Source: Fidelibacterota bacterium
Lineage (GTDB): Bacteria; Fidelibacterota; UBA8477; JABMPR01
DNA: 49,633 nt
Reading direction: 5' to 3'
Assembly (NCBI GenBank): GCA_013203185.1
Contig: JABMOS010000006.1
Span: forward strand, 1-49,633
The translations under genes and the position numbers were made by a program. Below, in pieces: positions 14,255 to 48,867 of the stretch. Position 1 is the first letter of the stretch. Every line of letters starts with the position of its first letter. The notes under the pieces are model-generated. The model ran no database searches, had not been told where the DNA came from, and worked only from the letters and a program-made list of their open reading frames with translations.

Positions 14255-14282
14255 CTACCAAGCAAGCTCAATGTACGGATGC

Positions 14283-18519: not shown

Positions 18520-18551
18520 AATGGTACCCCGTTTTTTAAAGAAAGTCGTGA

Positions 18552-20261: not shown

Positions 20262-20269
20262 ATCAAGCT

Positions 20270-21295: not shown

Positions 21296-21304
21296 GAATA
21301 TCCC

Positions 21305-21949: not shown

Positions 21950-21963
21950 AGTGCAGCACCTTA

Positions 21964-22299: not shown

Positions 22300-22309
22300 T
22301 TTCTCGCTC

Positions 22310-23617: not shown

Positions 23618-23639
23618 TATCTTCTCCTAGTGTTATGTT

Positions 23640-25841: not shown

Positions 25842-25854
25842 TCATTCACCGCCC

Positions 25855-27427: not shown

Positions 27428-28704
27428 TTCTTTTCCTCGATCTTCTGGCCTGAGTTTGTGTTGACGAAAGCTTGTGTGGTTAGTAGGTAAGCTGATTCTG
27501 GATATGTGTTGCTAAGATTTTTAAGTGCCAATTTATAGCGCTCATCTGGCCATTTAGACTGGCTATATGCCAGTAGAAATATCATTTTTTCATTTGATCC
27601 ATCCATACTGGATATCTGAGTATGTTCCCAATTCTTCTCTCCAAGAGCATAGGGAATCAAATAATCTATGGCCTGCTTGAGTGCTGAGTTGCCACCATTG
27701 TGGTGCGATAAATCAATGTCATAGTTGTCGGCCAATATAGCGCTGCGAACCAGGGCTGAGAGGTTGAATACTGAATAGCTATAGGATTTGGTGCGCTCCA
27801 GCTCTTCAGGTTGCTGACCAGATTCCTCGATTTGCTTCTCCAGCCTGTTGCCCTGAATACTTGCTGCGACCTCTCTGCCAACTTCATGATTGCCACAATA
27901 TTGACTTAAGGCCAGTAATTGGTAATCACACCAGCTGCCATGATTATTCACACGAGCTTGCTCCTCCTGGCCCAATTCACTGGTCAACAACCAGTCCAGA
28001 AATTCTGTCATCCAGGACTTGAACTGCTCATGATCAGCATCTGTCCAATATGTGGATGATTTGAGGAGAGGCTCATATTCTGTAAGAAATACGAAATTCC
28101 GCGATTCAATAATCCCAACGGACCTTCCGTCTGAGCGTCCGGGTATAAATTGTCCATAATTGAGGTTAGGATTCATTCGGGTTTTTGGGTTAAGAAACCA
28201 TACTTTTAAGAATTCAGTGGCTTTTTGTGCGTATTTCTCATCACCAGTAAAATAATACATAAGAATAAAGGCTCTGACAGCCTCAGCCATGGTGGCACCT
28301 GGGACTTTATCAAACTGTGCCCGCTCAGGATTCACAACACCATCCCTACGGATGTAGGGCAACCCACCTTTAGCGTCTGGATCTGGCCACCAATAGGGTC
28401 CCATACTGGTGTAATCATGCATATCACCACTGGGGGGTGGATTTTCCTTATCCATGACGGAGGGTGGAGAAAGTTCCATTGCCTCGCCAACTTGGAATTC
28501 AAGGAGCTGAAATGGAATTACATACAGACTATCCCTTGCTTCAATTCCCGATTTCGCCTGAGCCAGAGCCTTATGATTCAAAACCGTATTGAACACAGAA
28601 ATTGTAGTCGCAGGCGGAGAAATTGACTCTGGTTGGGGTGCACATGCATTTATCCCTATGATGATGAGGAGAAGTACTGTCAGTATAAAAGAGATATAGC
28701 GCAT
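27424..28704 (-). CDS. alginate-lyase-family (PF05426, PL5/PL38-like) lipoprotein
   Basis: 426 residues with lipobox GINAC (Cys21). It has YWWPDP at 104-109, PYIRRDG at 116-122, TRMNPNLNYGQ near 175-185 and NNHGSW at 253-258, the presumed active-site block of PF05426. Its start overlaps the PL6 stop in TAATG and its end overlaps the regulator gene. It is a paralogue of the protein at 8312-9514 but sits in the alginate operon, so alginate is the likely substrate here. Confidence 0.85.
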   Translation of the reverse strand: MRYISFILTVLLLIIIGINACAPQPESISPPATTISVFNTVLNHKALAQAKSGIEARDSLYVIPFQLLEFQVGEAMELSPPSVMDKENPPPSGDMHDYTSMGPYWWPDPDAKGGLPYIRRDGVVNPERAQFDKVPGATMAEAVRAFILMYYFTGDEKYAQKATEFLKVWFLNPKTRMNPNLNYGQFIPGRSDGRSVGIIESRNFVFLTEYEPLLKSSTYWTDADHEQFKSWMTEFLDWLLTSELGQEEQARVNNHGSWCDYQLLALSQYCGNHEVGREVAASIQGNRLEKQIEESGQQPEELERTKSYSYSVFNLSALVRSAILADNYDIDLSHHNGGNSALKQAIDYLIPYALGEKNWEHTQISSMDGSNEKMIFLLAYSQSKWPDERYKLALKNLSNTYPESAYLLTTQAFVNTNSGQKIEEKK

Positions 28705-31461: not shown

Positions 31462-34400
31462 TTACTTGAGCAACATGAGTTTCTTGACATCAGAGAACTC
31501 ACCGCTTGTTAGACGATAGAAGTACACACCACTGGCTAATGCAGAACCATTAAAGGTTACTGTATAGCGTCCTGGAGCCATACTCTGGTCAACAATACGC
31601 TCTAATTCCCTACCCCGTACATCATAGAGAACCAAGCGAGTATCTGCAGTTTCGATAAGATCGAAAGAGATAGTCGTACTTGGGTTGAAGGGGTTTGGAT
31701 AGTTCTGGTTCAGAGCATAAACATCTGGTAAGAAGTTATCATCCAATGATGTGGTGTAATCTTCATCATTGTACCAGATTGTTACCTCTGTATCACCTGT
31801 GATATCCAATACGCGGTTTGGTCCGCCAAAAGGAAATTCAGAGGTGTCCCAGTTACCGTTGATTCTCAGTTTATACTCGAAGTGGAGATCACCCAGAGCA
31901 GGAACTTCAAATGTCACGGACCAGATTGAGTCTGCACCAGTATGCATCAACCAACTGTCATCACCACCGCTCCAGTCATTCATACTACCGGCAACGTCTA
32001 GTGAATCCGTATCCGCATTAAAGTTGCCAGCAAAGATCTGGTAACCCATACGTGCATTCAGTGTTAAGAGATATGTAGGAAAGCTGAATTCAGCATAGAT
32101 CATCTTGTCGCCATCCATAGTCACTGTAGAAACAGCATCTGTAGATACAAGATCACCAGAATATCCATCAAACTGAGCCAATGAATCCGGTGTTGCTGTC
32201 AGTGTCACGACTGTACTTGGAGCATAGAACTTCAAGGTTGGAAGTGGACTGAGTTCAACAGAACCATTGCCTTCAACCATGAGATTCATTGCTGCATGCG
32301 CAGTAATGTTGGTAGAAGTTGCCCAGCGAAGATCACCGATAGCTGCTGATTCATCATTCTGAAGATGATAAGCATATGAATCATCACCCAGCGTGTAATC
32401 TTCAGCAGTAACGTCAGCAAACATGGGATCATACCAGAATACATCTGGTCCCAGGGTTGCATCATCTCTCATCTGAAGGTCCATTGGAACATTGTTAAGG
32501 AGTAGATTGTCTACATATGAGTTTTCACCTGCAATACGCAGTCCATACTCATAGGTAGTATTGGGTACATTGTTGATAATGGAGTTTGTGAAGGTCACAT
32601 CAGTTGTATTCTCAATGCGAACTGCACCAAACTTAGCACCTTCAGAACCATTTCCATAACCACAAGTATCGATGGTTAAGTGATCCATAAAGATCACAGG
32701 ATTCATGGTCTTCAGATAAAGGACTTCACGAGCAACACGTTTGAATGTGGTGTTTGTGATACTGATCATTGCTGCATCACCAACGGAATTCATGAAGATT
32801 CCTTCTTTACCAATATCCTCGATGACACAATGATCAAAGATCATAGAATCAACAAAAGCTGAAGGATAGTTCTTATAGAACGCTTCGATGGTTGATTTAA
32901 AATCAACATCAAAAGCTCTGATAGAAGTATGGAAACCGAAGTTACCCGAATCATCAGCACGAACGATATATTTGGCAGGAACAGTTGCTCCGTCCATCCA
33001 GCCATCGATACCAACATTCTTCAGCGTCAAATGTCCATTCATTTTCAGTCTGAAGAAACCTTCAGAACTGGAACCACCATTGGAGGAAGTATACCCCTTG
33101 ATCCACGGCTTGGCAGAGAGTGTGTCTGCGCCAAGAATCTCAACAGTTTGGTCGATAATGAGTTCAGGCATCTTGCCTTCTTCACGTAACTCTTCACCTG
33201 GTTCATAAGGACCAACATCAGTGAGGAGGATACGATATGCCTGGGAGTTATATTTTGTATACTCCAGAGCATCCATCAATTCCCAACTTGAGTCAATGGC
33301 CAGAATTCCATCTGGATGACTGATCTCAGTGAAGGTCGCTGTAACAGCCATATCTGCTGTGAGAGTGATCATTAGTGGATTGTCAGTTGACGTGATATCA
33401 CCACTCCATCCACCAAATTCCCAACCAAGAGGTGCATTGGCAGTAACGGTAAGTTCTGTACCAGCATCATAGGTATCAAACCCTGGAACCGGCATTGGAG
33501 ATACAGTCACGCTTCCCATACCAACAGTTGCTGTTGCCAGCATAGCCTGTGGGTTGGTTGATCTGAACAAGGCTGTAAAACTGGTGTCAGCATCAATGAG
33601 GTAGTAGATGTCGCCATCTGCGATACTATCCATCTCTGCATTCACCCAGTAAGCAAATTCCCAGTTAGCAGAATCAGCAACTGCGACCAGCTCAAGTGTA
33701 TCACCTTCGATGTATTCATCAAGGGGATACTGATGACCAACGGTCTCAACAATATGACCATAACCAATTGTGGCTAGATCGATGGCATAATTGTTCAGTG
33801 TAGGTACAAAATGGGCCGTAATATTACGGGATTCTGTCATGGTTATAGTTGCAACAGGGTTATTTGGTGGGAATGTGATGACAGGATCCCAATGATCAAA
33901 TGCCCAGTATTCAGCTGGTACAGCTGTTAGTGTAACAGTCTGGTCCTCAGCATATACGCCACCAGGAGGATCCAGTTCGATAGAACCTTCTCCAACAACA
34001 AAGGTGTTCAAGAATAACACACCCAGAGGTGGTGCCCAGCGGGTATCACCAATCGAGCCACCATCGTCTGCAAATGAATACAGAGGTGAGTCTTCAGGGA
34101 TGGAGAAATCTCCATTGGCTGCGTCGGCAAACATAGGATCCATCTGTACGGTATCTGTTGGTGTAGCTGAACCAGTTTCGAAGTTCAGTACATCCCAGAC
34201 AGCATTGTGATGGAACAGGTTTGCACTCTCACCTAAGTCAGCAAAATCCTCACTTAAGTCAGTATTGTCATTATGAACGAAGATGCTGTTCTTTATTTCC
34301 AGATCAGTAATGAGACGAAAACGCAGCATAGGTTTATTCTCAACACTTCCACAATCATAAACAGTCACTCTGTCGATGAGAATGTGGGCATCAGCATAGC

Positions 34401-36948
34401 TTTCAGATTTGATAGCTTCGCGTTCCATTGCATAGATGGTAGTATTCGAAACTTCACCATAGTTGAGTATGGTTGCCGGATCACTTGATGAACCTGAATA
34501 GAACATGATTCCTTCAGAAGCACCATTGTAGAATACACTGTTTCTAACAACCAGTGAATCGATGCCTGAGTTGCCATAAGGTTTAATAACTTTATCAGCA
34601 AAATCATGTGCAACCACATTATCAACAAATAGACTTGTTAGTGCAGTTGGATCAGAGTTGTCAATGCGGACAAAATATTTAACCAGACTGCCACCATCAC
34701 GAATACCATCAAATTCAAGATTTGATACGGCGAGACGTACATTGGCTTCTGGTCTTAAGAAGTATGAGCTTGAGCCACCATTATACTTCACCACAGGTTG
34801 TGTAGCCAGACCTGCAGCGCCACGAATGGTAAGATCGTGTGGTACTTCTATATCATCATCATTAACATAAATACCTTCAGAAACAAGTTCCAGGATATCA
34901 CCAGGTGATGAAGCAGCAACAGCATCTTGTAAAGCGTTGGGCAAATCATTGGTAACTTCAGTCACCACAACTGCCATAGCTTCAATCCAACGTGGATCTC
35001 CCACGGCCCCGCCATCATCGGCTAGGGTCATTGCTGCTGGATTACCAACAGTAAAGTCTGCATTGGCTGCATCAGCAAACATAGGATCTGCAGTGAGCGT
35101 ATCTGTCACGGTGGCATTACCAATATCACTATTGACAATATCCCACATCAGATTGTTAGTAAACAGAACTGCATCTGAGGAAAGGTCAGCAAATTCTTCG
35201 CCTGAATCAGCATTCTGAGAGTTGGCAAAGATACTGTTTTTAACCACAACATCTGTAACATCTCGGAAATACATCATGGGTTTATTTTCAACATTTCCAC
35301 AATCATAGAATGTGTTTCTGTCGATACGCACCATTCCACCTGTAGCAGTTTGGCCTTTGATAGCCTCACGCTCGATGGCATAAAATGTATTGCCTGTGAT
35401 TTCGGCATATGTGTAGACAATGGCTGGATCACTTGAGGAACCTGAATAAAGAACGATTCCCTCAGAGGCACCATTGGAGAATACATTGTTTTTCACAACA
35501 ATGGAATCTAGACCACAGTTCCCATAGGGTTTGATGAACTTATCATTGAAATCATTCACCACACAATCATAGAGAAAGAAATCCATTGTGGCCGTAGGAT
35601 CACCATTATCAAGACGGGCTAGATATTTGGCTTTTCCTGCGCCACCTTCAGCAGTTCCATCACCCTGAAATTCTATTCCAGAGATTTCAATACGTGGTGA
35701 GCCGACACCTTTAAACATATAAGCACCAGTTGAAGTACCGATGTACTTAACAACAGGTCTGTTGGGTAGTAAGTCCCAGGCGCGGATTGTGATATCTTCT
35801 TCAATCACGATCTGTGATGTATTCAAGTATAGACCATCAGAAACCAATTCAATCACATCTCCTGAAATGGCATCAGCGATGGCATCAGCAATAGAGTTTG
35901 TGTCAGCATTTGTGACCTGATACACTGCAGGAACACGATTTGGCACCCAATAGGGGTCACCTACAGCGCCACCATCATCAGCAAATGTCAACAATACATC
36001 ATTGCCAATAGTAAAATCGCCATTGGCTGCATCAGCAAACATGGGGTCAGCGGTAAGCGTATCAGATGCAGTGGCATTACCAATATCACTGTTGACAATG
36101 TCCCACATAACGTTGTTCATGAAGAGTGTGGCATCAGAAGTGAGGTCAGCAAATTCTTCACCTGCATCAGCATTCTGAGAGTTGGCAAAGATACTGTTTT
36201 TAACCACAACATCTGTGACATCGCGGAAATACATCATTGGTTTATTTTCAACATTCCCACAATCATAGAAAGTGTTTCTGTCGATACGAACCACACCGCC
36301 TGTAGCTGTTTGGCCTTTGATGGCCTCCCGCTCGATGGCATAGAATGTATTACCACTAATTTCGGCGTAGGTGTAGACGATGGCTGGATCACTTGAGGAG
36401 CCTGAATAGAGGACAATCCCCTCAGAGGCACCATTGGAGAATGAGCTATTCGTCACAACAATTGAATCAAGACCACAATTTCCGTATGGCTTGATGAATT
36501 TGTCATTGAAATCATTCACCACACAATTATCCAGGAAAAAATCCATGGTAGCTGTTGGGTCGCCATTATCTAAGCGAGCCAGGTATTTAGCTTTTCCGGC
36601 TGCTCCTTCGGCAGTTCCATCACCCTGGAATTCAATCCCAGAGATAGAGATGCGTGGAGAACCCACACCCTTAAACATATAGGCGCCTGTAGAGGTACCA
36701 ACATATTTGTAAACTGGTTTGTTATCTAACCATTCAGCAGCACGGATGGTGATATCCATATCAAGCTCAATTTGAGCCTTAGACAGATACACGCCGTCTA
36801 CTGTGAGCTCCAGAATATCTCCAGCAGCCGCATTGTTATATGCAGTTACCAGGGATGAATCTGAGTCGTTGACTACTGGAATCACTGCAGCCTGCAGCAT
36901 TCCAAATGCCAGTGTCATGAGACAAATGGCAATAAGTAGTTTTTTCAT
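31462..36948 (-). CDS. giant modular surface protein: PL6-C-terminal-like beta-helix array, bacterial repeat domains, CBM-like domain, T9SS tail
   Basis: 1828 residues from the ATG at 36948 (GGAGG four bases before it). Order: signal peptide; three tandem beta-helix modules of about 320 residues, the first two nearly identical; three bacterial repeat domains with GEGSIELDPPGG-type motifs; a fourth, diverged beta-helix module; a fourth bacterial repeat; a domain resembling CBM20/CBM48 (AGSMNDWSGGDDSW); and a T9SS tail (NQNYPNPFNPSTTISF, ending KLMLLK). The modules resemble the second domain of the two PL6 lyases here, but I find no PL6 catalytic Lys or RHGN motif. It is probably a non-catalytic alginate-binding or adhesive surface protein. 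Function is inferred. Confidence 0.85.
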   Translation of the reverse strand: MKKLLIAICLMTLAFGMLQAAVIPVVNDSDSSLVTAYNNAAAGDILELTVDGVYLSKAQIELDMDITIRAAEWLDNKPVYKYVGTSTGAYMFKGVGSPRISISGIEFQGDGTAEGAAGKAKYLARLDNGDPTATMDFFLDNCVVNDFNDKFIKPYGNCGLDSIVVTNSSFSNGASEGIVLYSGSSSDPAIVYTYAEISGNTFYAIEREAIKGQTATGGVVRIDRNTFYDCGNVENKPMMYFRDVTDVVVKNSIFANSQNADAGEEFADLTSDATLFMNNVMWDIVNSDIGNATASDTLTADPMFADAANGDFTIGNDVLLTFADDGGAVGDPYWVPNRVPAVYQVTNADTNSIADAIADAISGDVIELVSDGLYLNTSQIVIEEDITIRAWDLLPNRPVVKYIGTSTGAYMFKGVGSPRIEISGIEFQGDGTAEGGAGKAKYLARLDNGDPTATMDFFLYDCVVNDFNDKFIKPYGNCGLDSIVVKNNVFSNGASEGIVLYSGSSSDPAIVYTYAEITGNTFYAIEREAIKGQTATGGMVRIDRNTFYDCGNVENKPMMYFRDVTDVVVKNSIFANSQNADSGEEFADLSSDAVLFTNNLMWDIVNSDIGNATVTDTLTADPMFADAANADFTVGNPAAMTLADDGGAVGDPRWIEAMAVVVTEVTNDLPNALQDAVAASSPGDILELVSEGIYVNDDDIEVPHDLTIRGAAGLATQPVVKYNGGSSSYFLRPEANVRLAVSNLEFDGIRDGGSLVKYFVRIDNSDPTALTSLFVDNVVAHDFADKVIKPYGNSGIDSLVVRNSVFYNGASEGIMFYSGSSSDPATILNYGEVSNTTIYAMEREAIKSESYADAHILIDRVTVYDCGSVENKPMLRFRLITDLEIKNSIFVHNDNTDLSEDFADLGESANLFHHNAVWDVLNFETGSATPTDTVQMDPMFADAANGDFSIPEDSPLYSFADDGGSIGDTRWAPPLGVLFLNTFVVGEGSIELDPPGGVYAEDQTVTLTAVPAEYWAFDHWDPVITFPPNNPVATITMTESRNITAHFVPTLNNYAIDLATIGYGHIVETVGHQYPLDEYIEGDTLELVAVADSANWEFAYWVNAEMDSIADGDIYYLIDADTSFTALFRSTNPQAMLATATVGMGSVTVSPMPVPGFDTYDAGTELTVTANAPLGWEFGGWSGDITSTDNPLMITLTADMAVTATFTEISHPDGILAIDSSWELMDALEYTKYNSQAYRILLTDVGPYEPGEELREEGKMPELIIDQTVEILGADTLSAKPWIKGYTSSNGGSSSEGFFRLKMNGHLTLKNVGIDGWMDGATVPAKYIVRADDSGNFGFHTSIRAFDVDFKSTIEAFYKNYPSAFVDSMIFDHCVIEDIGKEGIFMNSVGDAAMISITNTTFKRVAREVLYLKTMNPVIFMDHLTIDTCGYGNGSEGAKFGAVRIENTTDVTFTNSIINNVPNTTYEYGLRIAGENSYVDNLLLNNVPMDLQMRDDATLGPDVFWYDPMFADVTAEDYTLGDDSYAYHLQNDESAAIGDLRWATSTNITAHAAMNLMVEGNGSVELSPLPTLKFYAPSTVVTLTATPDSLAQFDGYSGDLVSTDAVSTVTMDGDKMIYAEFSFPTYLLTLNARMGYQIFAGNFNADTDSLDVAGSMNDWSGGDDSWLMHTGADSIWSVTFEVPALGDLHFEYKLRINGNWDTSEFPFGGPNRVLDITGDTEVTIWYNDEDYTTSLDDNFLPDVYALNQNYPNPFNPSTTISFDLIETADTRLVLYDVRGRELERIVDQSMAPGRYTVTFNGSALASGVYFYRLTSGEFSDVKKLMLLK
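34005..36885 (-). repeat. tandem internal repeat, period about 960 bases
   Basis: Three in-frame modules (about 36885-35925, 35925-34965 and 34965-34005). The first two are nearly the same at protein and DNA level, for example GTTGGCAAAGATACTG at 36181 and again at 35221, exactly 960 bases apart. The third is clearly related but diverged. A recent duplication or gene conversion of module 1 or 2 explains this best. Confidence 0.85.
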
Positions 36949-36963
36949 GTTACCTCCCATTTC

Positions 36964-38445
36964 CTATTTAAGTAAAATCATTTTATTTATGCTGCTGTTC
37001 TGTCCTTGACGTAACTCATAGAAATACACGCCATTGGCCAGATCGGAAGCATCAAATTGTACACTGTGGGAACCTTCCCACATAAATTCATCCCTTAATG
37101 TGGCTACAACCTGCCCCAGGACATTGAAGACAACCAAAGTAGTAAAATCTGGCCTTTCAATAGTGAAGTCAATTGTTGTAGTTGGGTTAAAGGGATTCGG
37201 GTAATTCTGCTCCAGAGAAAAACCAATGGGTTTCGTTTCAGGATCAGTGCCTACGGGTGGCGGGTTGGTGGCCCAGCGTGGATCACCAATAAAACCACCA
37301 TCACTACCTCTGCTGTAGAGCTGAGGAGCATTCACTTCATAGTTGCCATTGGATGCATCTGTGAAATCTGGATCATAACCATAGACTGTACTTTCATCAT
37401 GATCTGCACCCTTCCCACTCTGCACCCGTTCTTCTGCATAGAGGGTAAAGGTCAAATTAAAGGTGTCGATATTAGCGATGTAAGAACTGCTTAGCTGGAC
37501 GTGCATCACATAATCGCCACGGTCAGGACGGTTGATAGAAGTCTCTCTACCATTGGCCACGAGGACATCACGGACGATTGTCTGACGATAATTCTTGGCA
37601 TAGATAAATCGTGGTGAGCAGTTTACAGCCGTCACCTTTTCAATGAGTGTAAAACCATCGACATAGGTGGGTCCAACAAAACTGGTGTCCGTATCACCAT
37701 AGATGCGTATGCATTCAGCATCGATATCATCAAAAGTGCTGTTCCTTACAATAAGTGTATCATAGGCAACCGTACCGCTGGTACCAAAAGGATATTTTTC
37801 TCCTTCAGAAACACGAATAGCTTCATCACCAATATCTGTAAAGGTACAACCCTCAATGAGGACTTTATTGGCTCTGATATGGTCATGGGTTACATCTAGA
37901 GGTCTCTGAAAATAGAGAACATTCCCTTGCATATCCTGGTCACCTCCAGAGTGGAAATTATTAAAATCACAATCCTTAATGATAATATCGATATCAGATT
38001 GGGCTAAATGGATTTGACCTGTTCCTGTATCTTCGAAATCACCATATCTTAGCGCGTATTTCAAACCACGGGGTTGATCCAGAGCCCCTTCAAATCGAAT
38101 ACCTTCAAATTTAACCGTGCTCTGGATACGGAAAATCTCCATTGAGCTACTGGTATCGGGATTTGAATGTGTCAATATTGGTTTCTCAGCCAGTCCAGGG
38201 GCTGCCATGATGACAACTGGACTGTTAATCACCAGTGGAAAAGTATCTGAGGTTGTGTACTCAAATCCACTTGATGTGAGAAGTACTGTATCTGCGCCCT
38301 GGGCTACAAAGTTTAGTACATTCTTAAAATCACCCTCGTACCATGCCTCCCAGTTGTCCGCACCCACTTCGATGAGTGATGGAATCTGAGCAAATGACGT
38401 TGCCGCCACCAGCATTGATAAAAGAGATAGTTGCAGTTTCTTCAT
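36964..38445 (-). CDS. single-module beta-helix protein with T9SS tail
   Basis: 493 residues: signal peptide ending SFAQ, one beta-helix module (about 30-390) and a T9SS tail (EQNYPNPFNPTTTIDF, GVYFYEL, ending KMILLK). The module ends with a DPDFTD..GNYEV..DGGFIGDPRWA block that recurs in the giant protein next to it and marks the same domain family, related to the second domain of PL6 lyases. I see no PL6 catalytic Lys or Arg motif. It is 15 bases upstream of the giant gene and nine bases after the porin-like gene. Probably a surface alginate-binding protein; not proven. Confidence 0.8.
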   Translation of the reverse strand: MKKLQLSLLSMLVAATSFAQIPSLIEVGADNWEAWYEGDFKNVLNFVAQGADTVLLTSSGFEYTTSDTFPLVINSPVVIMAAPGLAEKPILTHSNPDTSSSMEIFRIQSTVKFEGIRFEGALDQPRGLKYALRYGDFEDTGTGQIHLAQSDIDIIIKDCDFNNFHSGGDQDMQGNVLYFQRPLDVTHDHIRANKVLIEGCTFTDIGDEAIRVSEGEKYPFGTSGTVAYDTLIVRNSTFDDIDAECIRIYGDTDTSFVGPTYVDGFTLIEKVTAVNCSPRFIYAKNYRQTIVRDVLVANGRETSINRPDRGDYVMHVQLSSSYIANIDTFNLTFTLYAEERVQSGKGADHDESTVYGYDPDFTDASNGNYEVNAPQLYSRGSDGGFIGDPRWATNPPPVGTDPETKPIGFSLEQNYPNPFNPTTTIDFTIERPDFTTLVVFNVLGQVVATLRDEFMWEGSHSVQFDASDLANGVYFYELRQGQNSSINKMILLK

Positions 38446-38454: not shown

Positions 38455-39993
38455 TTATTTAATAGAATAGATATAACTCACAGTAAAGGATGATCCCTGC
38501 TCACGTGAGTAGTTTGTATTCGAATAGTAGTTATCCTGATATTTTAGATCCTGGAGCGCATAGCCCAGATCGATACCGCCCAGACTTCCCAAGTCTAACT
38601 CGACACCCAAACGATAGGATATAGCTTCGGGGCCACTGGCTTTAATCGCTGCACCATCTGGAACATAACTCATTGGCACTGAACGATATAACGCATTTAG
38701 GTAAACCATATCATGCAATTCATAGCGCATACCAAACTGAACGATGGACTGATCGATCCAGCTCTGCATATCACCCATGGAAAAGGTCGAGAGTGTATCT
38801 CTGGACACTTCAGAATCACCATATAGATGCATTTCATAGCTCAGGAGAAATGTGAATTTTTCCACTGGTTTGAGTTGAACACCAACGCCATAACTGCCAG
38901 GAATTGTCATTACATCCTGTCCCTCAATAGTGGACATACTTGAAGTAAGCAGGGTATCACCCTGGAGATAAGTCAGAGTCTTTTCATAACTCCAATCTTT
39001 TGTTAAATCCATTTTTGAAGTGTAGGATAATCCCATTCTGAAATGATCATAATCAAGAATCAAACCCAATTTGATGGCTGTTCCTGAGAAATCTGCATCA
39101 CCTGAATACTGTGTATTCATAGTATCATAGGACCAGATGAACTCATTTTGATCAATGAGGTCAAAATATCCCACCTTATCCTGGACTTGAAGCTCCTCAG
39201 AGCCACCTGAATATATAGAGAGACCAAGACCAAGATGGATGTTTTCAGTGGCTTCATACCCTACCCCAAGACTGATCTGATTAAGATTCGTCTTTTGGAG
39301 TCGTTGAAAATCATACCAGTCAATACGTGTTGTATCAGCGCCTTCAACCAGGGCGGGCATATTGTAATCGATATAACCTGGATGCGGTGTGAGATAGGTT
39401 TTATTTCTATCATAGCTAATCCCATTTAGCAGGGAAGCATATCCCGCGCTGAAGGCAATCTTATTCCCAGCTATATTCACTGGTAAGGCGATACCAAAAT
39501 GGCTGAGACCACTTGTAGATTCAGTTTGCTTCCAATCTGCTGCCTCTTCCGAGAAATGCTCCAACCCCATTTCAGGATTCGAAACCAAATAGGACGTATC
39601 CAGGAGAGATTCAAAGAAAACATCTGAATCCAGCCTGCCATTATTGATTGGATCAGGAATATAGAGCCCCTCTAAATAGAATGGCAAGGTCACAAACAGT
39701 CGGTTAGGACGGTAGTGCTGATTCTCCCACCATTGGTTTTCTATACTCACCATACCAGTGCTCACAGTCAGTCCTTTGATCCCTGACAAGCCTGCAGGGT
39801 TGCTAAATATGGATGCAGATCCTCCTAGGTCGGAGATACCATCCAGACCACTACCAAGAGCTCCAGGTGTAAAGGTCAAAGCCTTATCTACTCCCTGGAA
39901 AGAGAGGATATTACCTCTGTTTTGAGCGTGGACACTCACCAGGAATGCCAAAATCAGAAAGCTTGTCAAAAAATGTGATGTTTTGCGTCTCAT
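38455..39993 (-). CDS. FadL/PorV-like outer-membrane beta-barrel protein
   Basis: 512 residues with a signal peptide (FLVSVHAQ). The mature start has GGSASIFSNPAGLSG, the pattern shared by FadL and PorV-type barrels, and the rest is alternating beta-strands with aromatic girdles, ending in a strand SFTVSYIYSIK. I cannot name a family more exactly. It lies between the PorV/PorQ-like gene and the beta-helix genes in an alginate operon, so it may be an oligosaccharide channel or a partner for T9SS substrates. Confidence 0.65.
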   Translation of the reverse strand: MRRKTSHFLTSFLILAFLVSVHAQNRGNILSFQGVDKALTFTPGALGSGLDGISDLGGSASIFSNPAGLSGIKGLTVSTGMVSIENQWWENQHYRPNRLFVTLPFYLEGLYIPDPINNGRLDSDVFFESLLDTSYLVSNPEMGLEHFSEEAADWKQTESTSGLSHFGIALPVNIAGNKIAFSAGYASLLNGISYDRNKTYLTPHPGYIDYNMPALVEGADTTRIDWYDFQRLQKTNLNQISLGVGYEATENIHLGLGLSIYSGGSEELQVQDKVGYFDLIDQNEFIWSYDTMNTQYSGDADFSGTAIKLGLILDYDHFRMGLSYTSKMDLTKDWSYEKTLTYLQGDTLLTSSMSTIEGQDVMTIPGSYGVGVQLKPVEKFTFLLSYEMHLYGDSEVSRDTLSTFSMGDMQSWIDQSIVQFGMRYELHDMVYLNALYRSVPMSYVPDGAAIKASGPEAISYRLGVELDLGSLGGIDLGYALQDLKYQDNYYSNTNYSREQGSSFTVSYIYSIK

Positions 39994-40004
39994 ACTGACA
40001 TTCC

Positions 40005-40967
40005 CTAAATATTAATAAAGCCAATGCTAAAGCGATGAACTCCACTGAGATTCTCACCATAATCGCTATAGCCATAGTTCAAAGCAACTCGTTTCAATTT
40101 GAAACCCAATCCAAAATTAAAACCTTCTGTATCATAGTTTATCCGATACCCGGTCCTGGCATAAACCAGGTCCCTAAAGGAATATTCCATACCCACATTG
40201 AATTGCTGGGCATAATCCCGAGGCTGTACCAGATCCACAGTCATCAAGAGATCGTGGGTGGGGCTCTCCACCAGTAGCGGGCTATCTGCTCCCATAATGT
40301 GTGATGAAAGACCAATATTCATCGTTTGAGGTAAAGGATAGCTCTGTGTCTCATATTTTACTTGAGGACCAAAGTTTCTCACCGTTGCTGCCAGAATGAT
40401 ACTTTTAAATCCGGAATTGTAGAGAACACCTAAATCCCAAGCTACAACATCTTCACTGGCTACAGAGAAATCCTCAGTGACATATTTTGTAATAAGTCCA
40501 TATGAAAACTTGTCCGTCAGTTGCTGACTCAATCCAATTCCCATATCTGTGGCACCCAAGGTAAGGGATTCACCAGTAAGACCTGGATTAAACACACCAT
40601 CCACAAAACCAAGATTGGCAATATTAGTAACTGCAATGGATCCATAGTCGATAGACATACCATAGACACCCACAGCAAAACCTCCAAAGCCCCAGGAGGC
40701 TGCAACACTGGTATGTTGAGTATCAAACATGTAGTCTGTTTGGGAGATAAAGGTTCCCAACCCCTGTTGATAAACCAGGGCAGCTGGATTGCCATAGAGA
40801 CTTGCTGTACCCTGTGATATGGCTGCATAGGCACCACCCATTGAGGCGATTCTGGGGTCTGGTGAAATTTTTAAGAATTGAAAGGATGTGACTCCAACCT
40901 TTTCAAATCCAAAAGAGTTAAATGATAATGTTAGAAGCAGGAGTAAAATTATATTTATTTTTTTCAT
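40005..40967 (-). CDS. PorV/PorQ-family outer-membrane protein
   Basis: 320 residues. After the signal peptide comes FLKISPDPRIASMGGAYAA and GTASLYGNPAAL, the hallmark N terminus of PorV/PorQ-family barrels, and the protein ends in a membrane strand HRFSIGFINI. PorV in Bacteroidota carries T9SS cargo to the attachment complex. Five cargo-like proteins with C-terminal tails are encoded in this window, three of them directly downstream, so a dedicated PorV-like shuttle is a reasonable inference. It is not the housekeeping PorV with certainty. Confidence 0.8.
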   Translation of the reverse strand: MKKINIILLLLLTLSFNSFGFEKVGVTSFQFLKISPDPRIASMGGAYAAISQGTASLYGNPAALVYQQGLGTFISQTDYMFDTQHTSVAASWGFGGFAVGVYGMSIDYGSIAVTNIANLGFVDGVFNPGLTGESLTLGATDMGIGLSQQLTDKFSYGLITKYVTEDFSVASEDVVAWDLGVLYNSGFKSIILAATVRNFGPQVKYETQSYPLPQTMNIGLSSHIMGADSPLLVESPTHDLLMTVDLVQPRDYAQQFNVGMEYSFRDLVYARTGYRINYDTEGFNFGLGFKLKRVALNYGYSDYGENLSGVHRFSIGFINI

Positions 40968-40980
40968 GATATCCTCACCC

Positions 40981-43302
40981 CTACTTGACTATCACAAATT
41001 TACCGTTGGAGCTATTGCCATCAGGAGTCGTCACTACATAGAAGTAGATCCCTGATGCCATTTCCTGCCCCACACGGGTCGTTTGATAATTCAGGTTAGA
41101 ATAAACTGCTGTATCATGTTCAATGGTTCTAACCAGTTGCATGGCATAACTATAGATCTGAATGGTACATTTGGCGGGTAAGGCGTAAAAACCAATCTTC
41201 CCCTCATCTGTCCCACTAAAAGATCCCTTGCTGGCGATATAGGGATTTGGCACGACATGAACGTTACCCAATTCCTCAACTGCAGCGATATTTTTACCAA
41301 AGCGGGTGACATTGCTCTTGCCACTTTGTTCACCAGCGTCATCAACTGAAGTCACAGAGTAATAGCGATATTCACCCACTCTAAATGTTTCTTCAGTATC
41401 AACAAATTCATAAAGGTTATCTGAATTGAGAGGGTCACCGACTTCCACACTATCCACCAGTGTCCATGGACCCATACCTGCTGCTGCTCTCCAGATGTAA
41501 TACTTTGTAAGAGTTGTTGTTAGCAAGGGGTGTTCAAATTCTTCCTGATCCGCACGCCAGGTAAGCTTAATCGTTGCGCCTTCAAAGTTTGCAACATTAA
41601 GAACTGGAGCTGGATAAGGTGCCGGAATTGTATAAACGCCATTCTTAGGATGAGCTTCAGGCCAAACTGGTGCAGTTGGTGCAGTTCCCAAATAAGCCTC
41701 AAAAGCCTTCTCAGTAACTTCAGTCACATTCCTTACTGTCTTTGAATTAACATAGTCAGGATATCCAAAATCATCGAGATAGGCATTAGTCATTAACTGA
41801 CCATCAATAGTATAAGCACGATTCCAGGTTGGTGTACTGGTCCACTGTGTGATTACCTGACCACCTTCAATTCTCTTACCAGGCTCAGCACCGTAGCCAA
41901 CAACTTCGGCATAACTAAATTCAATTTTATCACCAAGTGAGAGACTATAGGGTCCAAAGGTATGGTGTTTCATCCCAGCATCAGCACTCTGCCTATATGG
42001 ATATGCTGCACGACCTACCCAGTGATAGCCTTTTTCATAATTCCAGGCAGTACTCCCAGGTGAATGCACACCACTCCAGCGTGTGTTGGGATTAATTGCA
42101 TCTTTCTCATACATTATCTTGGGACTATTGGTGTTCCCTGTGGAAACCTTGTTGGACCAGGGTTGTTTGATGTGATGATTCTCATCCACCTCGTAGTACC
42201 AGGTAAAGGATCCACTCTCATTCTCATGGTAGATATCGACCCCGGAACGTCCCTCCCAGGTATCAAAATCAGCCTGATCGACCAGGGTGCTGGTTCTAAG
42301 AGCTGACTGGGTTTCAGAGTCATTTTGACCCAAACTATCAATCACTTCAGGTACCACATAAGCAAGGTGGGTTGTGTCGTAGAAAAGAACGGCATAACCA
42401 GGTGCCTGGGGAGACCCCAGAGCGCCACCGTTTCTGCCCGTTTGAGCGAATTCCAAAAACAGATCCGGATCTAGTTCAGGATTTCCCGCACCAGCGTTAT
42501 CAGTAAGATTATTCCTCAAGTTCATATTGAAGGACAACCACCAATCCGAGTCCCAAAAATTATTCTGGTCTCCGCGGTAGATACCGCCGGTGTATTTCCA
42601 TTCAAGATAGGTTCGTTGATAGCCGTACATGGAGGGAGCAAATCCATAATTTAGAGCAACCATGACATCTTTGAGATCCTCAGTTTGCTCAATCGTTGCA
42701 GGATTCCCATCTGTGTCACCTGTGTATTCAAGATCATACTCATAAATGATCATGTCGTCATAATCTGGGTAACTCCAGGCTCGTGAAGTTCTGGTCACGG
42801 TGATACCCGTAGAAGTAGCCCAGGAGGTTCTGATAATTTCTTCTGCTTCATTAGGATCATAGTCAAGATTCAGGGTTCCATCCTCTAAAAGCGGAAAGTT
42901 CTCAATCTCTTCCATGAAGAGTGGAAAAGACCAACGTCCAATGGAAACTTCAGGAGAACCTGCTCCAACCCCACCGCACAATGCAAAGAGTCGATCAATT
43001 TCACCAGGCGCGCTGGCAAGATTTGCTGCGATATAGAAACCGGCTCCCAGGATATTATGTTGACCATCGTACTCGATTCCATCAATGATGGTTTTTGAGT
43101 AGGGAGGCCACTCGAAAACTGGGACACTTGTAAAATTTCCTGCCTCGCCTGTCTGCCAGGCCCGACCTATTTCACCTGTATTGAAAACCGTGTTATGCAA
43201 CATCCCACGGTCATGTATTTTGAATTCTCTTATCTGCCCAAATGAAAAACTCACAAAAAGCAGGATCAGGGAAATCGAAAGTGTGTGTTTTAAGATTTTC
43301 AT
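40981..43302 (-). CDS. T9SS-tailed partner of the SusC-like receptor, unknown family
   Basis: 773 residues with a signal peptide (FVSFSFGQ). The large N-terminal part (30-560) is rich in Trp, Tyr and Asp and I do not recognise it. A fibronectin-III-like region follows at about 575-690, then a C-terminal domain with VVPNPYIASKG and GIYFYVVTTPDGNSSNGKFVIVK, the T9SS sorting pattern. It lies 18 bases after the TonB receptor, exactly where SusD stands in Bacteroidota loci, but has no SusD features and no lipobox. It may be a functional replacement that captures glycan at the surface. This is inference from order. Confidence 0.7.
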   Translation of the reverse strand: MKILKHTLSISLILLFVSFSFGQIREFKIHDRGMLHNTVFNTGEIGRAWQTGEAGNFTSVPVFEWPPYSKTIIDGIEYDGQHNILGAGFYIAANLASAPGEIDRLFALCGGVGAGSPEVSIGRWSFPLFMEEIENFPLLEDGTLNLDYDPNEAEEIIRTSWATSTGITVTRTSRAWSYPDYDDMIIYEYDLEYTGDTDGNPATIEQTEDLKDVMVALNYGFAPSMYGYQRTYLEWKYTGGIYRGDQNNFWDSDWWLSFNMNLRNNLTDNAGAGNPELDPDLFLEFAQTGRNGGALGSPQAPGYAVLFYDTTHLAYVVPEVIDSLGQNDSETQSALRTSTLVDQADFDTWEGRSGVDIYHENESGSFTWYYEVDENHHIKQPWSNKVSTGNTNSPKIMYEKDAINPNTRWSGVHSPGSTAWNYEKGYHWVGRAAYPYRQSADAGMKHHTFGPYSLSLGDKIEFSYAEVVGYGAEPGKRIEGGQVITQWTSTPTWNRAYTIDGQLMTNAYLDDFGYPDYVNSKTVRNVTEVTEKAFEAYLGTAPTAPVWPEAHPKNGVYTIPAPYPAPVLNVANFEGATIKLTWRADQEEFEHPLLTTTLTKYYIWRAAAGMGPWTLVDSVEVGDPLNSDNLYEFVDTEETFRVGEYRYYSVTSVDDAGEQSGKSNVTRFGKNIAAVEELGNVHVVPNPYIASKGSFSGTDEGKIGFYALPAKCTIQIYSYAMQLVRTIEHDTAVYSNLNYQTTRVGQEMASGIYFYVVTTPDGNSSNGKFVIVK

Positions 43303-43320
43303 GTCTTCTCCGAGATCTTC

Positions 43321-46251
43321 TTAGAATTTCACGATTAGGCCAAATCGCCAGTGACGTGGTTGATTACTTAATAGATATATATCCTGACTAGAGATGTAAG
43401 GTTCAAAGAGAGAATAGGTCAAGATATTGTCTTTTTCCGTTTTCCAACGTGGTGTATTGTAAGGATTGTCAAAGGCACGACCATATGACCAGGTATAATC
43501 GTTGGTCAGATTATATCCTTCTACATACAGGGTTGTTTTGCGACCTGAGATATTAAACTCCTTCTCAATTCTCATGCGCATTTCACGTTCATCAGGAGTC
43601 CGTTCGGTGTACAGCAGGCCACTCTCAGGATCTGTATAGGGTCGACCAGTGTAGTATTTATAGGTTCCGCTTATGCTGAATTTAGCAAGAGGATATGTAC
43701 CCATAATTTGTGGACCAAATTTCTTGGGAGATTTATACCTGAGATTGAATACGGCTTTGTGAGTACGATCATAATCTAAAAACACATCTGCAGGATCTGG
43801 CAGTTGTTCCAGACCATAGACTGGGTCGGCGACTTCAAAATAAGTCACAGGGGCATTCAGATCATTGCTACTCTTCCCTGTAGAAGATTCATAATTATAT
43901 CTGATATACCCGCGTATAGCGCCATCTCGTCTCTCCAGATTGACATGAAATCCTTTAATATCGGCATAATCCTTATTTATATAGGTGCGGTATACTGCCT
44001 GTTGCTCATCATAATAATAGGCTGTTTCCACCAGGTTCTTCACATCCTTGTAGTAAGCGCTAATATCAAGAGTCAAACCCAGTGCAGGGATACCCTTAAC
44101 AATACCAATATCATAGGCGTTGGTTTCCTCAGGTTTAAGCCTGGGGTTACCTAGAATTTCTATTTCATTATTGAATGTTATCTGGTTGTAAAAGAGTTGA
44201 TTAAAACTGGGGCGCTGAGAAAAAGTACCATAATTTAAGTGAAAGACAGTGGTCTCATCTACAGGAAAGCTCACACCAATTCTTGGCTGAAGCTTGGCAT
44301 AAATCTTGGTATGCTCCTGCTGGGCCAACTCCGCTGAATAATAGGGCCCTCTTTCAAGGTATGGAAGCGTGGGATCGTAGTTTGGATTTCTCAGAGGACC
44401 ATATATGTCTGAGTAGAAATCTTTATTCAGTTGATAAAAATCAAAGCGCAACCCCATATTGGCGATCATCCCTTCGAATTCCATCTTATCCTGAACAAAT
44501 AAGGCTCCTTCGTAAGGGTTTACTTCAAACTTCAAGATGCGAATATCAGCATCTCCATCGCGATTATAGAGTCGATTTACAAAAACATCATAATAGCTGA
44601 ATTGAGCTCCGGCTTTGAGCATATTTGAGTTATTAACCTGGGAAGTAATGTCAGCCTGGGCCGTATAGGTTCTCGTAATATCCTCACCAGAGTCATTGAA
44701 TATACGACCAACCCGATGATTTGAGGGACCTGTAAGATCAACCCAATTAGAATTTTTTGAATAATCTGTGGTTAATTCACCCTCACCCAGAAGATTGATC
44801 AATTCCTCATTTTTAATATCCAATGTATTGAGCCTGATATGACCAAAGGTAGAACCACTAAATATATGATTCCAGTCCAGACCAAGTTGGGTAGACGCAG
44901 ACAATCTCTGGGATGTAGACAAGGTTGGATCAAATAGCCAATATCGATAAGAACTATTGAAGTAGGTCTCTCTTGATGTATTGTAGTTCCAGGTCAACTT
45001 GTATTTATCTGAGGTATTAGGCTTATAAACCAGACTACTCATAAGTTGTCGATCCAAATCTGGTGATTGAGTTGGAATACGAGTGAATGAAGTATTTTGT
45101 CTGAGAGCAATGAAAGCTTTAACATGATCTGTTATGGGACCACCTGTAGAAAAATCAAGACGATTATCAAAAGTGTTATCATATTGCATCCCTACATCAC
45201 GGACAGACTGCATCCAACTCACCTGTCCTAAACGAGCGATCTGCATTGAATCTTTCAAAGTAAGTGGGTTTGGAGGCCAGGTTGTTCTAGGAGGCAAGTA
45301 CTGGCCACCAAATCCGTAACCCAGATCATACATGACGCGACCTGGTTGTTGAGGGTTTTCTTCCAACCACTCTGATGTATCCATTAAAATTTCATAAAAT
45401 TCTAGACTATTGACATCATAGGGGCTTCCTGCTTCAACAGTGCGATTGCTGTCTTCGTCAAAGAATTCTTCCCACACTTTATAGTATGGAGCAGTCACAG
45501 ATACCTCTAATCGAGATTCCCATTTCTCACGCCCCTCTTTGGTGACCATGTTGATAACACCAGATTGAGCATTACCGTACTCAGCGCTGAAACCACTGGT
45601 ATAAACTTCAACCTGTTCCAGGCCGGTAACGATTGGGCTAAATGCTTTGGAGTTGGTCAGGGGGTTAACAATGGTACCACCAGCCAGGAGATAGCTGGAT
45701 TCACCGCTGCGACCACCACGAAAGTGATCATCTACAACATCAGCCTGCAGGTTAATAATATCACCAATATCACTGACACCAGCGATACTTTGGACATCGG
45801 AGATTTGATAAACCGTTTTTGTTGCTGTGAGATCCGTCTGAACGGTATTGTCTCTCTGAGACTCCACCACAACCATTTCACCTTCTAAGGAGGCAGCTTC
45901 CAGGGCAACATCAATAAAGCTGGTCATATCTACCAATACATCAATTTCAGTGATCTGTTTACTGGCCATACCGATAAAGTCTACGCGTAGGGTATATGTA
46001 CCGGGATAGATATTGAGAATATAGTAGTGACCTTCCAGATCAGTTGCACTACCCAGGACAGCGTCCAGAGGTGATTCTTCTCCATCTATCCAGCGATGGG
46101 TTACCATTACATTTGCTCCAGGTAATGCTTCGCCTGTTTGTGCGTCCGTAACTTGACCTGATATCTTACCACCCTGGCCGGCGTTAAGCATCATTGGTAT
46201 AAATACCAAAGCCCCAAGATACTTTTTCAGCCACTTAATCGATCCACTCAT
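43321..46251 (-). CDS. SusC-like TonB-dependent receptor
   Basis: 976 residues from the ATG at 46251 (GGGAG seven bases before it; the frame runs 14 codons further up into the operator region). After the signal peptide comes a carboxypeptidase-regulatory-like domain (GKISGQVTDAQTGEALPGAN, about 30-115), then the plug (SGFSAEYGNAQSGVINMVT) and a 22-strand type barrel ending in the terminal Phe of RFGLIVKF. It would bring alginate oligomers through the outer membrane using TonB energy. No SusD gene follows. First gene of the long alginate operon, under a promoter covered by a FadR-type operator. Confidence 0.9.
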   Translation of the reverse strand: MSGSIKWLKKYLGALVFIPMMLNAGQGGKISGQVTDAQTGEALPGANVMVTHRWIDGEESPLDAVLGSATDLEGHYYILNIYPGTYTLRVDFIGMASKQITEIDVLVDMTSFIDVALEAASLEGEMVVVESQRDNTVQTDLTATKTVYQISDVQSIAGVSDIGDIINLQADVVDDHFRGGRSGESSYLLAGGTIVNPLTNSKAFSPIVTGLEQVEVYTSGFSAEYGNAQSGVINMVTKEGREKWESRLEVSVTAPYYKVWEEFFDEDSNRTVEAGSPYDVNSLEFYEILMDTSEWLEENPQQPGRVMYDLGYGFGGQYLPPRTTWPPNPLTLKDSMQIARLGQVSWMQSVRDVGMQYDNTFDNRLDFSTGGPITDHVKAFIALRQNTSFTRIPTQSPDLDRQLMSSLVYKPNTSDKYKLTWNYNTSRETYFNSSYRYWLFDPTLSTSQRLSASTQLGLDWNHIFSGSTFGHIRLNTLDIKNEELINLLGEGELTTDYSKNSNWVDLTGPSNHRVGRIFNDSGEDITRTYTAQADITSQVNNSNMLKAGAQFSYYDVFVNRLYNRDGDADIRILKFEVNPYEGALFVQDKMEFEGMIANMGLRFDFYQLNKDFYSDIYGPLRNPNYDPTLPYLERGPYYSAELAQQEHTKIYAKLQPRIGVSFPVDETTVFHLNYGTFSQRPSFNQLFYNQITFNNEIEILGNPRLKPEETNAYDIGIVKGIPALGLTLDISAYYKDVKNLVETAYYYDEQQAVYRTYINKDYADIKGFHVNLERRDGAIRGYIRYNYESSTGKSSNDLNAPVTYFEVADPVYGLEQLPDPADVFLDYDRTHKAVFNLRYKSPKKFGPQIMGTYPLAKFSISGTYKYYTGRPYTDPESGLLYTERTPDEREMRMRIEKEFNISGRKTTLYVEGYNLTNDYTWSYGRAFDNPYNTPRWKTEKDNILTYSLFEPYISSQDIYLLSNQPRHWRFGLIVKF

Positions 46252-46280
46252 GCAGGTACTCCCTTTTTCGATAATATGAA

Positions 46281-46298
46281 TGATGTATGACATATTAT
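46281..46298. promoter_or_regulatory. FadR/GntR-type operator, site 2
   Basis: On the minus strand ATAATATGTCATACATCA. It covers the -10 hexamer of the receptor promoter, so bound regulator should block RNA polymerase. It lies inside a wider perfect inverted repeat, CGATAATATG (46269-46278) and CATATTATCG (46291-46300), with a 12-base centre. Confidence 0.8.
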
Positions 46299-46548: not shown

Positions 46549-48867
46549 TTAGTACATCAGTTTCAGCTTGAGTTGCTGCTCAACACGTATCTCCCCTGAT
46601 CGAGAAATCTTATTACCTGAATGTTTGTTGTTTTTTGCACCCCAGAGGACTGCTACAAGTTTCACTGGATTGTTTTGGAATATATTGTTCTGAAGATCCA
46701 CATTAATTATACCGCGGGTCTTCAGTAGGATATTTGAGTCTTCCAGCTTTCCACAATTCATGAATTTGGAATTATCAATAGTAAGAACACCACCAATAGT
46801 TGATTCATCATATCCGCCTCGGTAAAAATTAAGGACATTCTGATTGATCCGTTCAAAGCTGGAATTCTGTATGGTCACAAATTCCGCATTGTAATCGCCC
46901 TTATCATCGGTTTCTGCAGCCAATACGATTCCATTTTCACAATCACTGAATTTAGTATTTGTAATACTGATGGTGTCAGCAAAGGAGCCCTTGTGTCCCA
47001 GGAGTACATGATTGAATCCTGAGATATCAACCCTGTCCATCCATAGATTGTATCCAGGAGACATGTCCTCCTTGAGTGTCTCAAATGCGTATTGGGTGCC
47101 TGATCCCTGAATCTTGACATTTTCCAGATGTAGCTCTCCCCTGGGCTGCATTTGGAACAGGGGTGTCTTGGCACCACCATTATAGGTCAGGATGCTTGGC
47201 TTCTTCCCGTCAGCGCCACGCAAAGTAATCCCCTTATATAGGGCTATGGGTTCTGCTATGGTCAATTCACCCTCTGGTAAGTAAATGATATCCCCTGCCG
47301 TCACATCTAGAATAAATTCATTAAGAGGTTTTCCATCTGGATCGTATTCATGAATAGTAGGCACCGTGTCATCATTACCCTTAAACCATTTTGCCCCATA
47401 TCGTGCGGCATCAACTATATCCAGGGTTGGATTTCCACCTGGTAGCATGGCACCGACGTTGTCCTGGGTACTTCTGGGAGTCCCGAAAATGTCATCTGCT
47501 ATTTTGTCGAATTCAAATCCTGCATATGTCTGACTAAATTCAGCAGGTTGATCCATCTCAGGTACCAGCAACCAATTCGTGATGTTCTTCATTCCCAAAT
47601 CAGCTGTTGATATGCCATCATATCCGGATTCGACACCTCCTGCATTGTCCAGGAGATTGTTTCTAAATTGGATACCATCAACTTTGTCGTAGGACTGAAT
47701 TGGATTTGGATCAGCAATTCTATTATATATGATATTGTTTGCCACCACAGTTCGTATGGGTCTAGCTGAACGGATCTCGCTTTTAGGCAGCACATCTTTC
47801 ATATCCATATTGGCTCCCACTCCCAATTGCCAGGGTGCCTTACAATCAATCCAGGTATTATAGGCCACCACCACATCTGTGACCTGATTATATCTATTCA
47901 GTGGCGATTTGGGGATACCGTTCATGATGGCCAGTGGGCTGCGAAATTCGATACCGCTTATTCGATAGAAGTAGTTGTTGGTCACCCAGTGACCTGTATT
48001 AATGATCCTAACTCCTCCATTGAAGTCAGAATCTTCAGATCCGATAAAGTAGTTACCATCAATAATGCAATAATTTCCATGTCGCATGACCAGCGATCCT
48101 TCACAATGGTAAAAGATATTGTTTCGAAACTCATTGAAGTTGGTTTTGCTGGATATCACTTCGACCTCACCATTACAGCGATCAAATAGATTATTCTCTA
48201 CGAGGACGTATGAAGGAGCCATGGAGGTCCCACTATCACCAATCTGCAAGGTTTCCCCATGAGGTCCCCCTTTGCGTGGTCTGGGACCAAAATAGTTATT
48301 CGCGATGCGATGATAATTGCGAATATTTTCGTTGCCTTTTAAATTGACTCTTACTGTGGGTCCATCGTTGGCCTTACCTAAGATGCTGCATGACTCAAGT
48401 GAATTGTGCCTACCCCAAAACTCAACCCAATGATCAGTAGTAATACGATTCTTCTGTGTGAATCCGTCTATTACACAATTTACTACAGATGAATGATTGG
48501 CAATCCTGTCTGAATCAATACGGAATTCAATTACACTATTGGATGGGGTATAACCATTTTTGAAATAGAGACCATCAACAATTAGATACTCGCCTGCGAG
48601 TTCCAGAGATGACTGGCCCTCAATGGTTACTTCTCCTGGCGTTTCAGCACGGAGAGTAATAGGAGCTTCTTTGGTTCCCTGTGCCTCAAATTGAATCTCG
48701 ACATTCTCCCACACACCATTCTCCATGACGATTATATCACCTGGTTGAACTTGTTCAATCGCATCGTTTAGCTCAGCAATGTTACTTACAAGAAGTGCGG
48801 TTCCAGTTTCCGGGGAACAGCTAAAAAGCAAAATAGAAATACCCAAGAGGCTAATGATCTTTGACAT
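46549..48867 (-). CDS. PL6 alginate lyase, two-domain lipoprotein
   Basis: 772 residues with lipobox LLFSC (Cys17) and no T9SS tail. The N-terminal PL6 beta-helix has the catalytic Lys241 in VISSKTN and Arg262 in MRHGN, 21 residues apart, and HGETLQIG from the substrate cleft. A second beta-helix domain (about 485-740, AGDIIYLPEG..GITLRGADG) resembles the modules of the giant protein. It is a single-gene unit with an operator upstream and a terminator downstream. It differs from the PL6 at 28704-31409 by being lipid-anchored, so the pair may work on opposite faces of the outer membrane. Confidence 0.92.
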   Translation of the reverse strand: MSKIISLLGISILLFSCSPETGTALLVSNIAELNDAIEQVQPGDIIVMENGVWENVEIQFEAQGTKEAPITLRAETPGEVTIEGQSSLELAGEYLIVDGLYFKNGYTPSNSVIEFRIDSDRIANHSSVVNCVIDGFTQKNRITTDHWVEFWGRHNSLESCSILGKANDGPTVRVNLKGNENIRNYHRIANNYFGPRPRKGGPHGETLQIGDSGTSMAPSYVLVENNLFDRCNGEVEVISSKTNFNEFRNNIFYHCEGSLVMRHGNYCIIDGNYFIGSEDSDFNGGVRIINTGHWVTNNYFYRISGIEFRSPLAIMNGIPKSPLNRYNQVTDVVVAYNTWIDCKAPWQLGVGANMDMKDVLPKSEIRSARPIRTVVANNIIYNRIADPNPIQSYDKVDGIQFRNNLLDNAGGVESGYDGISTADLGMKNITNWLLVPEMDQPAEFSQTYAGFEFDKIADDIFGTPRSTQDNVGAMLPGGNPTLDIVDAARYGAKWFKGNDDTVPTIHEYDPDGKPLNEFILDVTAGDIIYLPEGELTIAEPIALYKGITLRGADGKKPSILTYNGGAKTPLFQMQPRGELHLENVKIQGSGTQYAFETLKEDMSPGYNLWMDRVDISGFNHVLLGHKGSFADTISITNTKFSDCENGIVLAAETDDKGDYNAEFVTIQNSSFERINQNVLNFYRGGYDESTIGGVLTIDNSKFMNCGKLEDSNILLKTRGIINVDLQNNIFQNNPVKLVAVLWGAKNNKHSGNKISRSGEIRVEQQLKLKLMY

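Follow-up and report, generated by a model that had tools for sequence, protein, structure and literature searches.

The contig JABMOS010000006.1 of a Fidelibacterota bacterium (assembly GCA_013203185.1), analysed here over 49,633 nucleotides (the window) and belonging to a 3.07-Mb draft genome that is 82% complete, carries four tightly packed minus-strand genes that recur together in many other genomes. Running from position 46293 to 38455 with intergenic gaps of 18, 13, and 11 nt in the open reading frame (ORF) list, they encode a TonB-dependent receptor (TBDR), a 773-aa protein bearing a type IX secretion system (T9SS) tail (the partner), a 320-aa PorV/PorQ-family barrel, and a 512-aa FadL-family barrel. 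ORFs and family scans bear out the initial annotation, which had described a receptor, a 773-residue T9SS-tailed protein, and PorV-like and FadL-like barrels at this site. The order of the quartet is kept far beyond chance. The reading favored here, with slightly better than even confidence, is that these genes specify a SusCD-like glycan importer assembled from other components, in which the partner, exported by the T9SS, would keep its tail and be fixed by it to a dedicated PorQ-like barrel adjacent to the receptor.

Scanning the aligned partner against bacterial and archaeal genomes yielded 63 loci, which lie in Neomarinimicrobiota, KSB1, Ignavibacteria/Melioribacteraceae, Calditrichota, Rhodothermales (as labelled), and a number of loosely named bins; a 94% identical partner is found in Candidatus Neomarinimicrobiota. 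Neighboring genes were called with six-frame profiles built from 11 cassettes. Among the loci with room for the gene concerned, a TBDR lies directly upstream of the partner in 58 of 61 (including L088, where only a 145-aa remnant is present), a PorV-family gene lies downstream in 57 of 59, and a FadL-type gene is found in 50 of 52, the full set of four being present in 49 of 51. Whether the partner always follows a TonB receptor was the check proposed in the initial annotation, and in these loci it does so with three exceptions. The receptor is missed at L120, L137, and L142, and both the PorV-family and the FadL-type genes are missed at L088 and L142; L120, L137, and L142 have interrupted frames, and the other miss is one decayed locus. 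At L047:9330-12191, a decayed locus, a partner stands beside a 145-aa receptor remnant and no PorV or FadL gene was found after it.

The same association is seen in five whole genomes, in which large TBDRs were recognized by a profile built from 20 partner-bearing receptors, mostly from other genomes or from the host genome itself. A partner-class tail lies within 6 kb of 55 of the 56 large TBDRs and of none of the 59 other TBDR matches, and a PorV-family gene lies within 8.5 kb of 55 of the former and 1 of the latter. Viewed from the tails, 55 of 63 strong partner-class matches lie no more than 6 kb from a large TBDR, 49 lie no more than 3 kb from a PorV-family gene, and both hold for 48; a TBDR is near 1 of 21 weak tails. 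A partner scattered without receptors is thus rejected by this nearly one-to-one pairing and by the upstream TBDRs of the locus survey.

The host genome encodes 12 large TBDRs, and near each of them are genes for a T9SS-tailed partner and a PorV-family barrel (at a distance of three genes in the case of the partner on contig C25). No such set accompanies the smaller TBDRs that were inspected; one of them (C153) is followed by an ordinary-tailed protein, and another (C110) has, two genes further along, a barrel with a weak match. Paralogous receptors and partners have co-diversified in this genome. Across the 12 modules, distances between receptors correlate with those between partners (rho 0.73; Mantel p 0.0002, the minimum for 5000 permutations) and with those between barrels (rho 0.61; Mantel p 0.0002), two of the barrels being cut by the fetched stretch. 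Four of the receptor-partner-PorV modules share one 52-kb contig (C84; L060, L061, L062).

The receptor had been called SusC-like, which is the weak part of that description. The protein measures 990 aa from its first ATG, and the start given previously, 46251, is an in-frame internal ATG that is followed by a plausible signal peptide. In the Pfam scan it matches PF00593 at 69.6 bits (cut-off 27) together with CarboxypepD_reg. The PF00593 score and the match of its family profile to TBDR structures place it in the plug and 22-strand barrel class, and the Plug model PF07715 on its own does not call it. Searched as a single sequence, the receptor has no PDB match at 1e-3; the family profile has 17 at 1e-6, of which the best is a colicin I receptor and one is a SusC homologue. 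The SusC assignment fails, since the receptor is absent from the matches of the SusC/RagA model TIGR04056 at 1e-6 (cut-off 368.25 bits), and the best score in the host genome, 95.4 bits, also falls below the cut-off. By the curated sequence model, the receptor is a TBDR yet no SusC.

The initial annotation also depended on no SusD being encoded elsewhere for this receptor. None was found in the host draft with the SusD_RagB and SusD-like_3 models (PF12741 and PF12771 were not searched), and SusD_RagB has no match in 18 genomes of the same genus. Elsewhere in the phylum, 68 of 245 genomes contain a SusD_RagB match. Two genomes, G186 and G201, each encode one true SusC by TIGR04056, with a SusD match roughly 1 kb away and both apart from the modules, which indicates that the two systems can coexist in one genome. 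Both SusC and SusD are reported from Melioribacter as well (PMC3534657), and the quartet occurs in its lineage.

The partner matches no Pfam family at E 0.1 and scores 19 bits against the T9SS tail model TIGR04183 (curated cut-off 23), the NCBIfam scan revealing nothing else. Its signal peptide was read by eye, and the SprA translocon is present in the genome. A lipobox-like motif is absent from 60 of the 61 aligned partners, the sole match (L108) lying early in the signal peptide. A structure model from the 61-sequence alignment, superseding a poor one from 15 sequences (pLDDT 56.0), predicts a mostly beta protein (pLDDT 88.2, pTM 0.88). Foldseek partially matches this model to fibronectin-III-like chains, phage tail-tip proteins, and PorZ; no whole-chain relative occurs among the best 50 matches, in which the TM-score (query length) does not exceed 0.21. 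The fibronectin-like domain claimed previously, which is invisible to Pfam, gains support from these fibronectin-III matches. Matches of the N-terminal part to carbohydrate enzymes (TM ∼0.2) are too weak to rely on.

The C-terminal tails of the partners form a class of their own. Two tail profiles were built from the 63 loci, one from 61 partner tails and one from 81 ordinary tails picked by an NPFNP-type motif, and in stretches of the host genome they separate cleanly 15 rows (14 distinct proteins) that score as partner tails from 17 that score as ordinary. The window partner scores 158 bits on the partner-tail profile and 16 on the ordinary one. Against all solved structures, the partner-tail profile matches the C-terminal domain (CTD) of PorZ at E 2.2e-5, followed by PorU at 0.076. 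At the level of profile searches, the PorZ CTD is the only clear PDB match of the partner tails. A profile of 12 ordinary tails instead matches cargo tails including gingipain, at E values from 8.5e-4 upward, as well as some unrelated proteins, and neither PorZ nor PorU is among its 21 matches (up to E 10).

The neighboring 320-aa barrel belongs to the PorV/PorQ family NF033709 (155.8 bits, cut-off 90) and lies below the cut-offs of both the PorQ equivalog NF033711 (84.5 bits, cut-off 220) and the PorV model (52.4 bits). Seven of eight module barrels score higher on PorQ than on PorV, two of these narrowly. The stand-alone PorV of the host genome scores 200 on PorV and 45 on PorQ; it lies at L149:819-2084, with another large gene following it, and each of the five genomes has such a high-scoring PorV-family gene with no partner tail nearby. 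PorQ has been reported as the anchor of PorZ (PMC5562754). The PorZ CTD is reportedly retained, and cognate PorV-like barrels are suggested to shield tails from cleavage (PMC10202324); cognate pairs of barrel and tail are also described for type B T9SS cargo (PMC12618676). The PorV-like gene of the window probably encodes a dedicated PorQ-like anchor for the partner.

The 512-aa protein is a member of the FadL family (PF03349, 37.1 bits, cut-off 29.7) and has no clear relative in the PDB (best E 0.16). No strong FadL match adjoins the other 11 modules of the host genome, so the gene belongs to this particular cassette lineage.

A docked-by-tail arrangement is the most economical model for these parts. 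The signal peptide would take the partner across the inner membrane, and the type IX translocon would take it across the outer membrane. Its PorZ-like tail would then stay unclipped on the PorQ-like barrel encoded next door, holding the beta-rich part at the surface beside the TBDR or as a lid over it. There, the beta-rich part could bind oligosaccharides released by co-encoded lyases and pass them on for TonB-driven import. The FadL-type barrel may be a fourth subunit in this lineage, either as an extra pore or as a packing partner. The logic of an uptake complex with different parts, as first proposed, is partly supported, by the conserved receptor-partner pair and the lack of a detected SusD, and the PorQ-like anchor is a proposed addition to it; uptake itself is what this model would predict.

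Several observations weigh against this model. One of the 56 large TBDRs lacks a partner, and no large TBDR occurs within 6 kb of 8 of the 63 strong tails. G000 contributes two of these tails, on a 7.3-kb contig; G186, which is a single contig, another two; G233 three; and G003 one, for which the nearest receptor is ∼6.7 kb away. Some of the cassettes behind the neighbor profiles recur among the 63 loci. The two tail classes remain related to each other (hhalign probability 97.7), all eight module barrels score below both the PorQ and the PorV cut-offs, a single one scores higher on PorV, and the sole PDB match of the window barrel is a PorV. Contig C108 of the host genome (L068, 7.3 kb) encodes two proteins in tandem (1100 and 1093 aa), both ending in a partner-class tail, and carries neither a receptor nor a barrel.

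The genes surrounding the quartet point to polyuronate degradation (Table 1). Three T9SS cargo genes follow it, one with a polysaccharide lyase family 6 (PL6)-type domain. In the 1832-aa cargo protein, DUF5123 is matched four times and several beta-helix stretches are nearly identical to each other, making it a recently repeated protein of the same operon.

Table 1. Features of the window, with positions and supporting evidence.
Feature	Position	Strand	Basis
TonB-dependent receptor (TBDR), N-terminal CarboxypepD domain	43321..46293	-	PF00593, PF13620; conserved with partner; start may be 46251
773-aa partner, no Pfam family: signal peptide, mostly-beta N-terminal part, Fn3-like domain, T9SS tail	40981..43302	-	Structure model, Fn3 and PorZ Foldseek matches
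C-terminal tail of partner, PorZ-like class	40984..41283	-	Tail profile 122.1 bits; PorZ CTD match E 2.2e-5
320-aa PorV/PorQ-family barrel, proposed partner anchor	40005..40967	-	NF033709 155.8 bits; PorQ model 84.5, PorV model 52.4, each below cut-off
512-aa FadL-family barrel, fourth gene of this cassette lineage	38455..39993	-	PF03349 37.1 bits; kept in 50/52 loci with room
T9SS cargo, DUF5123/beta-helix type, ordinary tail	36964..38445	-	Domain scan and tail scoring
1832-aa T9SS cargo, DUF5123 and beta-helix repeats, ordinary tail	31462..36960	-	Domain scan and tail scoring
PL6-type (Chondroitinas_B) lyase, ordinary T9SS tail	28704..31409	-	PF14592 336.1 bits; downstream of quartet
PL6-type (Chondroitinas_B) lyase	46549..48867	-	PF14592 637.8 bits; upstream of receptor
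Polyuronate catabolism/transport: TRAP transporter, UxaC, KduI, alginate-lyase-domain proteins, GH88, GH2, kinase, KDPG/KHG aldolase, MFS transporter	482..26619	-	

Of the 47 loci of at least 15 kb, 31 have a PL6 gene within reach. These 31 are all among the 39 loci whose partner is at least 42% identical to that of the window, compared with none of the 8 below this value (Fisher p 4e-5). Of three divergent cassettes, L050 precedes genes for a sulfatase and two alpha-L-fucosidases (L050:14004-18829), hinting at a fucoidan-like substrate, and L053 precedes a sulfatase gene; L049 has none of these in the genes scanned. From the PL6 split and the neighbors of L050 and L053, the clade of the partner seems to follow the glycan. 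The proposal of an alginate uptake system therefore survives as to its polyuronate-degradation setting and proves too narrow in scope, given the 12 modules in one genome and the L050 cassette, whose neighbors rule out a system restricted to alginate. The copy in the window probably serves alginate or another polyuronate.

Among competing explanations, it is unlikely that the quartet is a display or export device in which the TBDR helps to secrete or assemble a T9SS-tailed surface adhesin or enzyme with no import taking place. Such a role would have a precedent in Oar, a Myxococcus TBDR reported to be required for protease secretion (PMC6434023), and would suit the faint resemblance of the N-terminal part to carbohydrate enzymes. 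It sits poorly with the glycan-degradation setting, which changes with the partner clade, and with the ordinary-tailed cargo of the same operon, which comes with no barrel of its own. Moreover, ordinary T9SS cargo proteins number in the hundreds and are not known to need a TBDR of their own. An arrangement of linked but independent parts is given the same low probability. Here, the receptor would import while the partner acted as a T9SS-anchored glycan-binding or glycan-degrading protein, the two forming no stable complex and being kept together by co-regulation only. The operon is indeed common to lyases and other T9SS cargo, and eight partner-class tails have no receptor nearby, but the nearly one-to-one pairing across 56 receptors, the co-diversification within one genome, and an adjacency that stays constant while other neighbors change all argue against it. 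That the partner is a highly diverged SusD in an ordinary SusCD pair, as the shared gene order and the CarboxypepD domain of both receptor kinds might suggest, is rejected as extremely improbable by the lack of a SusD model match, the near absence of a lipobox-like motif, the TIGR04056 score of the receptor, the true SusC with its nearby SusD match kept separate from the modules in G186 and G201, and, unless the structure model is wrong, a mostly-beta architecture where SusD has a helical fold of the tetratricopeptide repeat type.

A wider version of the docking model is tentative, at a little under even confidence. It holds that lineages of the Fibrobacteres-Chlorobi-Bacteroidetes (FCB) group possess a widespread second solution to SusCD, in which uncleaved PorZ-like tails dock partners permanently on PorQ-like barrels, with about a dozen substrate-specific sets per genome and SusD wholly replaced in the genus studied here. 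Searches of openly licensed papers turned up no title or abstract describing this gene set. If the model is correct, lid-and-gate glycan import can arise from unrelated surface parts, and the T9SS supplies permanent subunits of nutrient importers in addition to enzymes and adhesins. Glycan loci of several uncultured lineages would then have been overlooked because searches seek SusC-SusD pairs, by which such loci are defined in one study (PMC11573768). The combination of a TBDR, a PorZ-like tail, and a PorQ-like barrel would serve as a search marker for these loci and opens the anchoring idea to direct test.

Several known systems resemble the module in part. BamG, a FadL-family subunit of the BAM complex of Bacteroidota, is reported to hold a surface protein beside BamA (PMC12611786), and barrels of the FadL type can therefore be structural neighbors. 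The FadL gene of the window is itself not a BamG, scoring 36.8 bits where the BamG model requires 250. Type B CTD cargo of Flavobacterium, as reported, likewise has a dedicated barrel encoded beside the T9SS-tailed protein; there the barrels are of the PorP/SprF kind, whereas the module combines a PorV/PorQ-family barrel with PorZ-like tails and includes a TBDR in the unit (PMC12618676). The PorZ-PorQ pair of the T9SS attachment complex is approached by the best match of the module tails and by the PorQ leaning of seven of the eight barrels. It differs in that the module barrels score below the PorQ cut-off, many pairs exist per genome, each beside a TBDR, and the N-terminal part of the partner belongs to no Pfam family. 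Like the SusC/SusD importers of Bacteroidota, the module places a TBDR gene ahead of a surface-protein gene in a glycan-degradation locus. In contrast to them, it has neither the SusD family or fold nor a lipobox, its receptor fails TIGR04056, and its partner ends in a T9SS tail and has a barrel of its own.

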